A stretch of 64,000 nucleotides of DNA from Planctomycetaceae bacterium (GTDB taxonomy: Bacteria > Planctomycetota > Planctomycetia > Planctomycetales > Planctomycetaceae), in assembly GCA_021732785.1 (NCBI GenBank), contig JAKFUG010000011.1:1-64000 (forward strand), given 5' to 3'. Below are positions 4,551 to 58,658 of the stretch, piece by piece (the first letter of the stretch is position 1; each line of letters starts with the position of its first letter). The notes beneath the pieces were generated by a model. That model searched no databases. It worked only from the letters and a program-made list of their open reading frames with translations, and was not told the origin of the DNA. The position numbers and the translations under genes were made by a program.

Positions 4551-4634
4551 CGTAGGGTTTGCCGAGTCCGCGAGGCGAACCACGAATTGTCCCCGCTCTC
4601 TGAGGTTCGCCTCCCGGACTCGGCAAACCCTACG
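4551..4634. repeat. Palindromic repeat, family F
   Basis: CGTAGGGTTTGCCGAGTCC and its exact inverse GGACTCGGCAAACCCTACG form long terminal arms, with inner arms GAGGCGAACC and GGTTCGCCTC. It ends one base before the stop codon of the glutaredoxin gene. A homologue lies at 25131-25212. Confidence 0.9.
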
Positions 4635-14237: not shown

Positions 14238-14310
14238 GTCGGGGCGGGGACCCCGACCTATGATTTTAGGTGAATTTCACATCCATAGGTCGGGGCCCCC
14301 GCCCCGACTC
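14238..14310. repeat. Palindromic repeat, family A
   Basis: GTCGGGGCGGGGACCCCGAC, then CTATG, and the inverse arm CATAGGTCGGGGCCCCCGCC (CCGACTC) flank an AT-rich centre. Five copies occur in the window (also near 29312, 31872, 34349 and 61913). Confidence 0.9.
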
Positions 14311-15912: not shown

Positions 15913-15924
15913 CGTTTCTCTCCG

Positions 15925-15997
15925 TGAGCGGCCCGGCGCTAGCCGCCGGTTCTTCGCATCGTTAAAAGACACCGGCGGCTAGCGCCGGGCCGCTCAT
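15925..15997. repeat. Palindromic repeat, family D
   Basis: TGAGCGGCCCGGCGCTAGCC (then GCCGGT) pairs with ACCGGCGGCTAGCGCCGGGC (then CGCTCA). A second copy lies at 53795-53864, after pheS. Both lie just downstream of a stop codon. Confidence 0.9.
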
Positions 15998-25130: not shown

Positions 25131-25212
25131 GTAGGGTTTGCCGAGTCTGCGAGGCGAACCATGGTTGCCAATCGACCAAAGGTGGGCCTCGAAGACTCGG
25201 CACCACCCTACG
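25131..25212. repeat. Palindromic repeat, family F
   Basis: GTAGGGTTTGCCGAGTCTGC (then GAGGCGAACC) is mirrored by GGGCCTCGAAGACTCGGCAC (then CACCCTAC). Compare 4551-4634. Confidence 0.88.
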
Positions 25213-34494: not shown

Positions 34495-37400
34495 ATGTTC
34501 GAAAAAGTTGGCGACGCGGATTTTGTGCGCGGTGAGCATGACGTGCTGCGTTTCTGGGCGCAGCAGCAGATTTTCAATCAGCTTCGCAAGAAGAACGATG
34601 GAAATCCCGCGTGGAGTTTCCTCGACGGCCCGATCACCGCCAACAATCCGATGGGCGTGCATCACGCCTGGGGTCGCACGTACAAAGACGCCTTCCAGCG
34701 TTACTGGGCGATGAACGGCCGCGAGTTGCGGTATCAGAACGGCTTCGATTGCCAGGGGCTGTGGGTCGAAGTCGAAGTCGAAAAACAACTCGGCCTCGGG
34801 GCGAAGTCCGAAATCGAAAAATTCGGCATCGACAAATTCGTGTGGGAATGCAAGAAGCGCGTCCTGAAATACGCCGCCGTGCAGACGGAGCAATCGGTCC
34901 GCCTCGGCTACTGGATGGAATGGGACGACCCCTCCTCGCTTCGCCGCTTAGCCGATGCCATCGGGACCGACGAAGAAATTGCCTTTTCCCCGCCGAAGAA
35001 ACCGACCGACGTCATCCGCGCGAAGGCCGAACAAATCGTCGAACGCCTCGGCAACCCCGACTGGGGCGGCAGCTACTTCACGTTCTCGACCGAGAACAAC
35101 GAAACCATCTGGACGTTCCTCAAGAAGTGCTTCGAGCGCGGCAAGGTCTACCGCGGCCACGACGTAATGCCGTGGTCCGGCCGCGGCGGCAGCGCGTACT
35201 CGCAAATGGAAGTCGCTGATGGTCGCAAGCTGACGGTGCATCGCGCGCTGTTTGTGCGGCTGCCGATTTTGGCTAAGGGCTCAGAGCTAAGGGCTAAGGG
35301 ACAGACGGAAAATCCACCGTCTTCCTCCGACCCTCAGCCCTTAGCCCTCAGCCCTCAGCCCTCCGAATATCTCCTCATCTGGACCACCACCCCGTGGACG
35401 CTCACCAGCAACGTCGCGGCGATGGTCAACCCCGACCTCGAATACGTCCAGCTCAAAGCGAAGCGTGACGGCGCCATCTACTACTTCGCGAAAGACAACC
35501 TCGAATTCCAGCGGCTCTCGAAAGAGTTCAAGGAAGGCTTCGGCCGTCCCGAATGGCAGTGGCCGAAGGACGCCCCGAAGCTGAAGTCCCTCGCCCAAAT
35601 CTTCAAAGAACAAGGCGGCTACGAAATCCTCGGTACTGTCTTCGGCCGCGACATGATCGGATGGCGGTACCAAGGACCGTTTGATGACCTGCCGGCACAG
35701 CATCAAGAGGTAGAGTTTCCGCCGGAATCAGAAACCAAACGAAATCAGGCTTGGGCCAAGTATCGCCGCACTGCAGTGACTCAGCGAAAAACTTCGTTGC
35801 TGACGATGATAATTCGTTCCGAACAAGAAAAAACGAATTCTCAACACAGTTTTCGGCAAGCACTTCTTGATGCCATCAATGTTCACTGTGCAGAAGTCGG
35901 GAACGCCTTTCGCGAACTGCATAATGTTTCAACGCCCTCTATCGTGACGGCGGAGAATCTAGAGATCGTTCTCAAAAATGCTGGTCTATTTGACCATGTT
36001 CTAGGCTCATATAAAGAATTGAGTGAATTACGGGTCAGAAGTGAAAATGAAAGTTTCGAGCCGGTTTCGCGTGATTGGCAGCAACTCCGCGATCTTGCTG
36101 AAAAAATTCATCTTGATCTGCAACATGGTTTACGGCTGGTCTTCTTTTCACGAGGAGTTGATTGCCACCGCGTGATCGACGGTGGCCGCGATTTCAAAGG
36201 TTCGCCCAACGTCGTCGCCGGGGAAGGGACGGGTATTGTTCACAGCGCCCCGGGTTGCGGGGACATCGACCATCAGATCGGGCTCGCCAACGGGCTCGTC
36301 ACCATCGCTCCACTCGGTGAAGACGGCCGTTTCCTCGATGGTTTCGGCCCCTTCACAGGCAAGAACTCCGTCGCGCCGGAGACCGTCGATCTCGTCATCG
36401 ACGAATTGAAGAAAAAAGACCTGCTGGTCGCGGTCGAAAAGTATCCGCACATCTATCCGTTCTGCTGGCGGACGGGGGACGAACTCGTCTTCCGTCTCGT
36501 TGATGAGTGGTTCATCAACATGGACTGGCGGAAGGAGATCATGGATGTCACGAAGGAAATCGAGTGGCTGCCCGACAGCGTGCAGGGACAGGAACGCGAG
36601 CTGGAATGGCTCGGCAACATGCGCGACTGGATGATCTCCAAGAAGCGTTACTGGGGCCTCGCGCTGCCGATTTGGATCAATCCCGAGGATCCCAGCGATT
36701 TTGAAGTGATGGGGTCGCTCGCCGAGTTGAAGGGCCGTGCCGTTGAAGGCTGGGAGGCGTTTGAAGGGCACACGCCACATAAGCCGTGGATCGATGCGGT
36801 GAAGATCAAGAGCGCGAAGACCGGGGCGGTGCTGTCGCGCGTGCCGGACGTCGGCAACCCGTGGCTCGATGCGGGCATCGTTCCGTTCTCCACGCTCGGC
36901 TTCAACACGCATCCCGATTACTGGAAGCGGTGGTACCCCGCGGACCTCGTCACCGAGTGTTTCCCCGGCCAGTTCCGCAACTGGTTCTACTCGATGCTCG
37001 CGCTGTCGACGATGATGCAGTACGACCGCACCGACGACGCCGACGAGAAAAAGCCGTTTAAAACGCTGCTTGGTCACCGCCTCGTGATGAACGAAGCGGG
37101 CAAGCCGATGCACAAGTCGGACGGCACCGCCATCTGGTTCGAGGAAGCCGCCGAACAACTCGGCGTCGACACCATGCGGTGGATGTACCTGCAGCAAAAC
37201 CCGGCGACCGACCTGCGATTCGGCACCCGCCACAAAGATCAAAAAGTCACTCTGGAAACGGTCAACGGCCCGACCGACAAGACTATCGACGGCGTCGAAA
37301 CCTGCAAGGTGGAAAGCGGCCCCGCCGACGAAGTCCGCCGGCAGGTGCTGCTGCCGTTGTGGAACTCGTACTCGTTCTTCATCAACTACGCCCGGCTGGA

Positions 37401-38553
37401 CGGCTTCGATCCGAAGACGCCGCCGGTGCCGTTCGCGGAGCGTCCACAGATTGACCGCTGGATTCTGACGAATCTTGGAGACACGATCTTCAATGCCCGC
37501 AAGGGTTTTGAGACATTCGACACATGGTACACGACTGACCATGTCGCGAAGTTCATTGAAGACCTGTCGAACTGGTACATTCGCCGCAATAGAAGACGGT
37601 TTTGGCGTTCTCGTGATGCTGCTGATCGCGACAAACTTGCTGCATACCAGACGCTTCATCACTGTCTTGTGATGATCACGAAAGTCATCGCTCCGATGAC
37701 GCCATTTCTCGCAGAGCGCATGTACCAGAATCTGGTTCGATCATGGGATTCTGGTGCCCCCGAAAGCGTGCATTTGTGCGACTATCCACAGGAAGATCAC
37801 TTGTGGCAAAACTTTGACTTGCTTGCACCAATGCAGCTTGCACAAAGCGTAGTCGCAACTGGCCATAGACTTCGTGAATCGATCGATCAGCGGGTTCGGC
37901 AGCCATTAAGCGAAGTACGTGTTGCATCCCGTGAGCCGACTGATCGAATGCGGCTGAAAGAGATGTGCGACATCATTGCGGATGAGCTTAATGTGAAATC
38001 TGTAGTGATCGTTGACAGCTTGAGTGATATCGTCGCTTACAAATACCGTGCGAATCCGGCCTCGCTCGGGAAGAAGCATGGCAAACTGCTGGGCAAACTG
38101 CGCGAGTTGATCCCCACGCTGCCCGCCGCGACGTTGGCTCCGTTGCGCGATGGTCAATCCGTCACGATTCAGGTCGATGCGGAGTCGATTGAACTCGTGC
38201 CGGAAGACGTGAGCCTGTCGGTCGAAAACGCAGCCGGGTGGGCGAGTGCCGCCGACGGGGACATCGAGATCGCGTTGTCGACGGCCCTCACCCCCGCCCT
38301 GCTCCGCGAAGGCATGGCTCGCGACTTCGTCCGCCAGGTCCAGCAACTTCGTAAAGACGCCGACCTGCAAATCGAACAACGCATCCGCGTGACCTACAAC
38401 ACCACCGATGCCGAAGTGCAAGCCGCGATCACCGAATGGGCGACGTTCATTCAGGGCGAGACGCTCGCGGATGCGCTGGTGATAGGCGACATCGCGGATG
38501 CAAAGTCGGTGAACGTGGGGGATGTGACCGTGAGGTTGAGCATCACAGCGTGA
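34495..38553 (+). CDS. ileS: Isoleucine--tRNA ligase, oversized, with insertions
   Basis: This cytosolic enzyme charges tRNA-Ile and edits Val. The class I HIGH-type motif is [13 protein letters not shown] near residue 62, and a KMSKS-like [13 protein letters not shown] occurs near 870. The editing domain ([30 protein letters not shown]) and the DALRP-type C-terminal helical domain are present. Its 1352 residues exceed the usual roughly 1050 by 300. About 31 residues (259-289) come from an inserted palindromic repeat. About 154 residues (403-556) are an AT-richer unrelated block within the editing region. From 37480 to 38045 codon use also shifts. Both insertions keep frame. Whether it is functional and essential, or replaced by a second copy, cannot be seen. 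Confidence 0.9.
35271..35362. repeat. Palindromic repeat, in frame inside ileS (family J)
   Basis: GGCTAAGGGCT...AGCTAAGGGCTAAGGG forms the left arm and CCCTCAGCCCTTAGCCCTCA the right arm. The two pair imperfectly around GACAGACGGAAAATCCACCG. The 92-base block is spliced between LPILAKG-like and [13 protein letters not shown] codons and contains no stop. Confidence 0.85.
35701..36160 (+). other. Low-GC insertion within the ileS editing region
   Basis: Codons between DDLPAQ (before 35701) and [11 protein letters not shown] (after 36160) do not resemble IleRS. They encode about 154 mainly helical residues ([40 protein letters not shown]). AT content is clearly higher than in the flanking codons. 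The frame continues without a stop. It resembles neither an intein nor an intron by the motifs I can see. Confidence 0.7.
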
Positions 38554-38554
38554 A

Positions 38555-38640
38555 CAAGCCCGAAGCGCGAGCGCCGGGTTCTTTTGTATTCTAAACGAAG
38601 AAGAAAAGGCGAAGAACCCGGCGCTTGCGCTTCGGGCTTG
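38555..38640. repeat. Palindromic repeat, family C, left of RAYT
   Basis: CAAGCCCGAAGCGCGAGCGC (CGGGTTCTT) is mirrored by GAACCCGGCGCTTGCGCTTC (GGGCTTG). It lies directly between ileS and the RAYT gene and matches the element at 39131-39213. Confidence 0.92.
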
Positions 38641-38674
38641 TAGAGCGTGTTATTCTCGTTTCGCGGGGATTTCA

Positions 38675-39127
38675 ATGAGCGCACCGCTCGCGTATCACCT
38701 CACGTGGACGACCTATGGAACGTGGTTACCGGGTGATGAACGCGGATGGCTCACACGCAATGCGAACGAGATTCATCGCGGTGACCGCGAATGGCAACAG
38801 CAAGCGGTGCAGAATCTGAAGCAGGATGCGTTCGTTCTGAATGATGCACAGCGAGAGATTGTTCGCGAGACGATCGTGACCCATTGCGAGTTTCGTCGCT
38901 GGAAATTGCACGCGCTGAATGTGCGGACGAATCACGTTCACCTTGTCGTTACGGCGGATACAGCACCGGAACGAGTGATGGATCAATTCAAGGCGTGGTG
39001 TTCGCGCCGGCTTAATGAGCGCAGCGAGAACCGTGAGCGTTGGTGGACGCGGCATGGATCCACGAGGTGGATCAACGATGAGGCGTATCTCGCGAATGCG
39101 ATTCGATACGTGAACGAGCGGCAATAA
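38675..39127 (+). CDS. REP-associated tyrosine transposase (RAYT)
   Basis: This single-strand-DNA endonuclease of the IS200/Y1 superfamily is thought to spread REP-type palindromes. The 150 residues contain the characteristic opening LTWTTYGTWLPGDERGW, the HUH motif NHVHLVV (H87, H89) and a C-terminal RWINDEAYLANAIRYVNERQ. Y138 is the best candidate catalytic tyrosine by spacing, with Y145 the alternative. The family C hairpins on both sides (38555-38640 and 39131-39213) are its likely substrates, which forms a REPtron-like arrangement. It lacks any helper gene, as expected for RAYTs. Confidence 0.88.
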   Translation: MSAPLAYHLTWTTYGTWLPGDERGWLTRNANEIHRGDREWQQQAVQNLKQDAFVLNDAQREIVRETIVTHCEFRRWKLHALNVRTNHVHLVVTADTAPERVMDQFKAWCSRRLNERSENRERWWTRHGSTRWINDEAYLANAIRYVNERQ

Positions 39128-39130
39128 CCA

Positions 39131-39213
39131 CTAGCCCGTAGCGCAAGCGCCGGGTTCTTCGTATTTTGAATGAGAATGAAATACGAAGAACCCGGCGCTT
39201 GCGCTTCGGGCTC
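39131..39213. repeat. Palindromic repeat, family C, right of RAYT
   Basis: CTAGCCCGTAGCGCAAGCGC (CGGGTTCTTCG) is mirrored by GAACCCGGCGCTTGCGCTTC (GGGCTCG), with an inner TATTTTGAAT...GAAATAC arm. Same family as 38555-38640; a half-unit lies at 43611-43640. Confidence 0.92.
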
Positions 39214-39224
39214 GTTCGCGTTTT

Positions 39225-43610: not shown

Positions 43611-43640
43611 CGAGCCCGAAGCGCCAGCGCCGGGTGTATT
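43611..43640. repeat. Family C half-palindrome
   Basis: CGAGCCCGAAGCGCCAGCGC (CGGGTGTATT) corresponds to one arm of the RAYT-flanking element at 38555-38640; the inverse arm is missing. Confidence 0.75.
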
Positions 43641-53784: not shown

Positions 53785-53794
53785 TTCGTCTCCG

Positions 53795-53864
53795 TGAGCG
53801 GCCAGGCGCTAGCCGCCGGTTCTTGGATTCATTTCGGAACCGGCGGCTCGCGCCTGGCCGCTCA
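53795..53864. repeat. Palindromic repeat, family D
   Basis: TGAGCGGCCAGGCGCTAGCC (GCCGGTTCTT) is mirrored by GGAACCGGCGGCTCGCGCCT (GGCCGCTCA). Compare 15925-15997. Confidence 0.9.
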
Positions 53865-58560: not shown

Positions 58561-58658
58561 CGTTTAGCCGCGACCCGGTAGGGGAGCGCTCGCGTGGAGC
58601 GCGCCACCCGCGTTGTGCGCTTCACACCAGCGCTCCCCTGGCGGGTCGCGGCTAAACG
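58561..58658. repeat. Palindromic repeat, family G
   Basis: CGTTTAGCCGCGACCCGG is mirrored by GGCGGGTCGCGGCTAAACG around a GC-rich centre (GGGGAGCGCTCGCGTGGAGC). Second copy of the element at 1152-1254. Confidence 0.9.

Follow-up and report, generated by a model that had tools for sequence, protein, structure and literature searches.

The REPIN-RAYT systems of Pseudomonas, which Bertels and Rainey are said to have described in 2011, reportedly comprise inverted REP pairs with a variable spacer and several repeat-specific transposases per genome. The spread of REPs and their recognition by the transposase are known mainly from the enzymes of E. coli, Stenotrophomonas and Marinomonas. TnpAREP of E. 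coli, a group 2 RAYT, cleaves single-stranded REP DNA and needs both an unpaired AA-GC mismatch region and a GTAG foot (Corneloup et al. 2021, PMC8266576). Class 3 TnpA-Y1 was described from 24 proteins that feature a YxxxxQ motif, an extended N-terminal conservation and a profile of ~155 aa; the atypical secondary structures flanking their genes were given a 5' foot CnGA, with no loop rule (Quentin et al. 2018, PMC6006769). In Rhodopirellula baltica, numerous genes of this sort have been noted along with their repeats (Di Nocera et al. 2013, PMC3733652). Both the arrangement treated here (the REPtron) and the enzyme group (class 3 TnpA-Y1) are already known.

The locus lies in a window of 64,000 nucleotides, which is the whole stretch of DNA that was analysed, and is very probably a REPtron-like unit consisting of a single-copy, host-maintained class 3-type Y1/HUH single-stranded DNA transposase and of family C, the REPINs that are or once were its substrate (Table 1). 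An earlier note on this DNA had described a RAYT-type gene with the motif NHVHLVV between two near-identical palindromes, and the open reading frame and the repeat analysis bear this out; the anatomy given for the palindromes also stands, with their ends corrected to those listed in Table 1. The gene upstream is, judging from its sequence, presumably an isoleucyl-tRNA synthetase-like (ileS-like) gene. Searching the window with the pattern AGCCCGAAGCGCNAGCGCCGGG and up to three mismatches revealed five REP units, against 0.02 (sd 0.14) by chance in 100 shuffles, none of which reached five. One of these units lies apart from the locus, within what had been reported as a half-copy at 43611-43640; the copy is real and is one REP unit, which we regard as a decayed REPIN because the congener G002 has both units of an inverted pair at the orthologous position. 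Matches of the long hairpins to Rfam are miRNA-precursor look-alikes, all below the cut-off, and were put down to chance; toxin-antitoxin, CRISPR and attC-like readings of the locus were rejected, with nothing pointing to any of them.

Table 1. Features of the transposase locus and of the separate REP unit in the window.
Feature	Position	Strand	Remarks
Upstream gene	34495..38553	+	stop codon ends one base before REPIN 1
REPIN 1	38554..38641	.	two inverted family C REP units, 38-nt spacer; DNA fold -42.1 kcal/mol, z -10.9
REP unit AGCCCGAAGCGCGAGCGCCGGG	38557..38578	+	in REPIN 1; foot ACAAG from 38554
REP unit AGCCCGAAGCGCAAGCGCCGGG	38617..38638	-	in REPIN 1
Class 3-like TnpA-Y1 (RAYT-like) gene, 150 aa	38675..39127	+	Pfam Y1_Tnp
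HUH motif N86-H87-V88-H89	38930..38941	+	inside the transposase ORF
Y motif Y145-VNER-Q150 (YxxxxQ)	39107..39124	+	inside the transposase ORF
REPIN 2	39130..39215	.	two inverted family C REP units, 36-nt spacer; begins 2 nt past the transposase stop codon; DNA fold -45 kcal/mol, z -13.8
REP unit AGCCCGTAGCGCAAGCGCCGGG	39133..39154	+	in REPIN 2; one mismatch, in the internal loop
REP unit AGCCCGAAGCGCAAGCGCCGGG	39191..39212	-	in REPIN 2
Single REP unit	43613..43634	+	partner arm lost; whole REPIN at the orthologous G002 place

The 150-aa gene product matches Pfam Y1_Tnp with 38.6 bits (cut-off 23), and its matches to the NCBIfam models IS200 (36.3 bits, cut-off 55) and REP_Tyr_transpos (30.7 bits, cut-off 80) stay below threshold; a weak match to NCBIfam 'BPSL0067' was dismissed as chance. 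Alignment of 56 relatives revealed a near-invariant N-terminus, TWTTYGTWLPGDxRG (residues 10-24), conserved H87/H89 and Y145, and a Y-x4-Q motif in most of the proteins, which reads YVNERQ in the window protein. The AlphaFold2 model (pLDDT 92.6) finds its best PDB matches in IS200/IS605 TnpA (Z ~14) and in the E. coli RAYT 4er8 (Z 10.6; 14% identity over 109 aligned residues), the protein of E. coli TnpAREP being only distantly related to the window transposase. With a dN/dS of 0.11 between its own genome (G000) and G002, the transposase gene is under purifying selection. Like the published class 3 (PMC6006769), it comes from Planctomycetes and encodes a Y1/HUH protein of ~150 aa with YxxxxQ and N-terminal conservation, and several hairpins that are found repeatedly in the genome lie on either side of it. 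Judged by sequence, it fits the class 3 TnpA-Y1/REPtron group and not the canonical GT[AG]G REPs. The name RAYT used for it before is thus right as far as a Y1/HUH, RAYT-like protein is meant, but has to be narrowed to a class 3-like TnpA-Y1, with a foot ACNAG instead of GTAG and the REP_Tyr_transpos score given above.

Each palindrome consists of two inverted REP units of ~26 nt, ACNAG-CCCGAAGCGCNAGCGCCGGG-T, with a free spacer between them, and is thus a REPIN. Consensus and placement were derived from the stretches of the own genome that were read out, which contain 132 units. The consensus of these 132 units is A-C-N-A-G / CCCG-AA-GC-GCNA-GC-GC-CGGG / T, in which two bases alone vary freely, the loop N and the foot N (G, A or C, with a single T), and position 7 of the internal loop and its partner position 18 vary slightly. 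The foot keeps AC, the variable N and AG in 128 of the units, and in seven units stem pair 3 shows a compensatory change from C-G to G-C. A count table inspected by eye gave no clear pairing rule between the foot N and the loop N. For family C, folding favours a 3-bp stem closed by a CNAG loop, and the GNNA loop is to that extent ambiguous in family C itself. Fifty-nine inverted head-to-head pairs, whose spacers measure 13-79 nt, together with 14 singles make up the 132 units, and the family is arranged as REPINs, that is, as inverted and dispersed pairs with a variable spacer. The 3' tails of the REP units in own-genome copies (L022-L039, L222-L255) read TTCTT, TGCATT, TGTATT or TCTCTT, and the two units within one REPIN can differ in their tail, as if units had been swapped between copies.

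This arrangement resembles that of the E. coli REPtron, in which a single gene lies between REPs and inverted pairs are amplified near genes, and the AA/GC internal loop in an imperfect stem is common to family C and the E. coli REPs; the latter differ in their GTAG foot, longer stem and a loop without sequence preference (PMC8266576). Inverted pairs with a variable spacer and several repeat-linked transposases in the genome are likewise reminiscent of the Pseudomonas systems, which differ in having GT[AG]G feet and a transposase of another subclass (PMC6006769). The TIRYT/TIRtrons and the REPs of R. baltica (PMC3733652) share with the present case the placement of Y1 genes between inverted repeats, with several kinds per planctomycete genome, but neither the published GTAG families nor the GGGGWSAS TIRs are found at the foot of family C.

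Pattern searches allowing two mismatches, with the reversed pattern as control, detected 165 family C units in the own genome (6.7 Mb) and none for the control, so that the abundance above chance which the earlier note had asked about is found. The congener G002, whose genome is 64% complete and whose transposase is 83% identical, has 67 units, and the complete genome of the congener G001, whose transposase is 56% identical, has none; thirty-seven other genomes have 0-18 (controls 0-2), mostly as two-mismatch variants such as AGCCCGAAGCGCAAGCGAGGGG, in genomes that have transposase relatives of their own. The family is distributed together with its transposase in the two congeners. The gene of G001 adjoins a unit of its own type, AGCCCGNAGCGCNAGCAAGGGCG, with 26 copies in G001, 7 in G000 and 57 in G002. 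No transposase of the G001 type was detected in G002 (64% complete) despite its 57 units, and the association between hairpin and transposase is therefore strong but not strict.

No clean empty site was found in the comparison with G002, the places without family C holding other repeats or diverged DNA. Of three G002 REPINs without a family C ortholog among the G000 copies read, one has a different REPIN family (GTAGGGTTTGCC...) at its place in G000, and the other two gave no clean junction; the comparison therefore yields neither a target sequence nor a target duplication. A palindrome family GTAGGGTTTGCCGAGTCCGCGAGGCGAACC with a GTAG foot occurs in the window at 4552-4634 and 25131-25161, and a member of it in G000 fills the intergenic place of a G002 family C REPIN (L257 versus L207).

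The own genome contains nine Y1 genes detected by Pfam Y1_Tnp and one (C4) found by protein search. At least three of those other than the window gene sit between hairpins of their own, each family being amplified in the genome with all controls at 0: GTAGCCCTGTCGCTCCGCGACAGG flanks the C37 gene (125 matches), GCACCCCGGCTGC...GCAGCCGGGGTGC the C8 gene (57 palindromes) and GGCGAGCGGGGGGACGTAAGTCC... the C52 gene (19 matches). The genome thus has at least four Y1 genes that each lie beside their own amplified hairpin family, which agrees with the earlier suggestion that similar enzymes may account for other hairpin families.

A scan of GTDB genomes returned 197 relatives, nearly all from Planctomycetota, and 80 loci were kept. 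Repeats common to both flanks of the gene are present in most related loci, and the expectation that related RAYTs carry adjacent hairpins is confirmed by the same architecture in other planctomycetes. In the near flanks (54 kb), 126 hairpins of the 8-4-8 type combine an AG foot with a GNNA loop, versus 13 in the far flanks (154 kb). When a hairpin was required in both flanks, the AG/GNNA combination, one of 256 foot/loop combinations, occurred in 32 of 81 loci, and the other 255 occurred in 0-1 loci each, except for TNNC-loop readings, in which the AG/GNNA hairpins are read from the other strand. A search fixed on AG and GNNA with the pairing left free found a repeated element in 61 of the 81 loci. 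The innermost two pairs of these elements are Watson-Crick in 97% and 95%; pair 7 is far above shuffles (65%, largest 79%), and pair 8, being C-G in almost every case, does not stand out from them. In 25 separate loci from other genomes, outside the set in which the rule was found and under a slightly looser pairing criterion than in the 81-locus search, AG/GNNA was present in 11 and anything else in at most 3.

The stem sequences vary among the related loci, and the AG foot and GNNA tetraloop are common to them. Exceptions are L112, L121 and L127, a small clade with the triloop hairpin CCGC-ATT-GCGG that keeps an AAG foot. The class 3-like loci L063/L191 and L067 have GNNA-type loops and AA instead of the AG foot. 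On the protein tree, hairpin type (internal-loop, perfect, bulged or triloop) requires 10 changes, versus 25.4 (minimum 21) with shuffled labels; part of this association may reflect common descent, because host lineages also pass the type on. Two loci of one assembly, L092 and L130, have different hairpin types, each matching its protein clade.

Compared with the published class 3 set (PMC6006769), the foot may differ, the outermost invariant bases being AG (within ACNAG in family C) where CnGA was described, and a GNNA loop is found across ~60 loci where the set of 24 proteins yielded no loop rule. CCGA is present inside the family C unit (AGC-CCGA-AGC), in the stem and internal loop, and several relatives have perfect stems without CnGA. 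No description of the AG-foot/GNNA-loop rule was found in the openly accessible main texts consulted on REPtrons and class 3 TnpA-Y1, and a text search of the literature returned no paper that joins a REP-associated tyrosine transposase with a tetraloop. The proposal that class 3-like planctomycete transposases read a structural code and not a sequence appears to us evenly balanced between right and wrong. The code would be an AG foot directly 5' of a 20-nt hairpin (8 + 4 + 8) closed by a GNNA tetraloop, whose stem, either perfect or interrupted by a 2x2 internal loop, is free to drift in sequence. If such a code exists, enzyme and hairpin family could diverge fast and several pairs could coexist in a genome, the specificity being set by clade-specific details of the foot (ACNAG, TTAG, TGAG or GTAG) and of the stem (perfect, internal-loop or bulged).

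The placement and conservation of the REPINs call for a comparison with other explanations. For 80% of the REPINs read, the 3' end of an open frame of 200 codons or more is no farther than 20 nt away, versus 3% for places drawn at random from these loci (an open-frame test for REPINs inside genes was dropped, being uninformative in GC-rich DNA). Ten orthologous REPINs were compared between G000 and G002, in a sample that favours recognisable arms and for which the G002 stretches were picked around its REPINs. Their constrained arm positions differ by 2.6%, the two N positions by 47.5%, the spacer by 43% and the flanking 60 nt by 27%, which is suggestive of constraint on the arms. Both results would suit hairpins that are bidirectional terminators or mRNA 3'-end stabilisers under selection, between which the transposase sits with no role in their spread. 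We consider this improbable: no T-run follows the arms, scans of the locus for sigma-70 promoters and for terminators (the latter covering loops of 3-8 nt) found none, the AG foot, which is strand-specific, is no part of the stem in the small hairpin, and a terminator role does not predict a hairpin sequence of its own beside each of four Y1 genes. A secondary role of the hairpins as terminators or stabilisers is compatible with the main explanation.

In G002 the transposase gene likewise follows the upstream gene at the corresponding place, between two REPINs with near-identical REPs, and this bears on two further readings. In one of them another enzyme, e.g. a class 3 relative on contig C52 or C4, spreads family C, and the window gene (on C22) landed by chance between two old REPINs. 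Y1 enzymes can indeed take several REPs, E. coli TnpAREP being cross-active on the Marinomonas REPMa (PMC8266576), and this genome has the further Y1 genes counted above; but the layout is kept in G002, related genes elsewhere keep it with different sequences, and hairpins other than family C flank the C52 and C4 genes, which makes such an origin quite improbable. The other sees in the locus an IS200/IS605-like insertion sequence, mobile as a whole, with the palindromes as its ends. The IS200-type fold, the HUH/Y residues and the hairpins on both sides are what it would have in its favour, yet it is highly improbable for a gene that is single-copy in G000 (next matches 45% and 29% identical) versus ~165 hairpin units, that has stayed in place in G002 and that is under purifying selection.

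We therefore prefer the reading of the locus as a REPtron-like unit, and the earlier proposal that family C is the substrate of this transposase gains support by association, from the abundance of the family, the related loci and the other Y1 pairs. Binding, cleavage site, transposition and lagging-strand targeting are modelled here on E. coli TnpAREP and on IS608/ISDra2. By this analogy, the REP unit would be exposed as a single strand, e.g. on the lagging-strand template, and its top strand would fold into a small hairpin in which the foot ACNAG is followed by a lower stem of 4 bp (CCCG/CGGG), the AA/GC internal loop, an upper stem of 2 bp and, at the tip, the loop GCNA, which is of the GNNA type. 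The enzyme may recognise the AG-ended foot together with the loop or internal loop, and not the stem sequence; Tyr145 would then cleave near the foot, and the inverted pair (REPIN) would be cut out, copied or inserted, with a preference for the short stretch behind stop codons. The wider family comprises dozens of natural enzyme-hairpin pairs with free stems and a fixed foot and loop, and enzyme recognition is therefore directly testable by foot, loop and stem swaps.

Several further repeat families were observed in the window. A palindrome family of ~95 nt, GGTAGGGGAGCGCTCGCGTGGAGCGCGCC..., lies at 1178-1226 and 58561-58658, has ~35 places in the genome and matched a flank query. The family CATAGGTCGGGGCCCCNGCCCCGAC has five copies, at 14278, 29344, 31912, 34392 and 61958, and the family ACTCGTTCCCACGCTCTGCGTGGGAACG...GACGCTCTGCGTCG occurs in inverted pairs at 2477, 5438, 5518, 26908 and 26984. 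The repeat GTGAGCGGCCCGGCGCTAGCCGCCGGTTCTT at 15919-15963 and 53789-53833 is a bulged REP type with a GCTA loop, which lies beside none of the Y1 genes examined in this genome and flanks Pirellula-type transposases (L116, L128 and L146).
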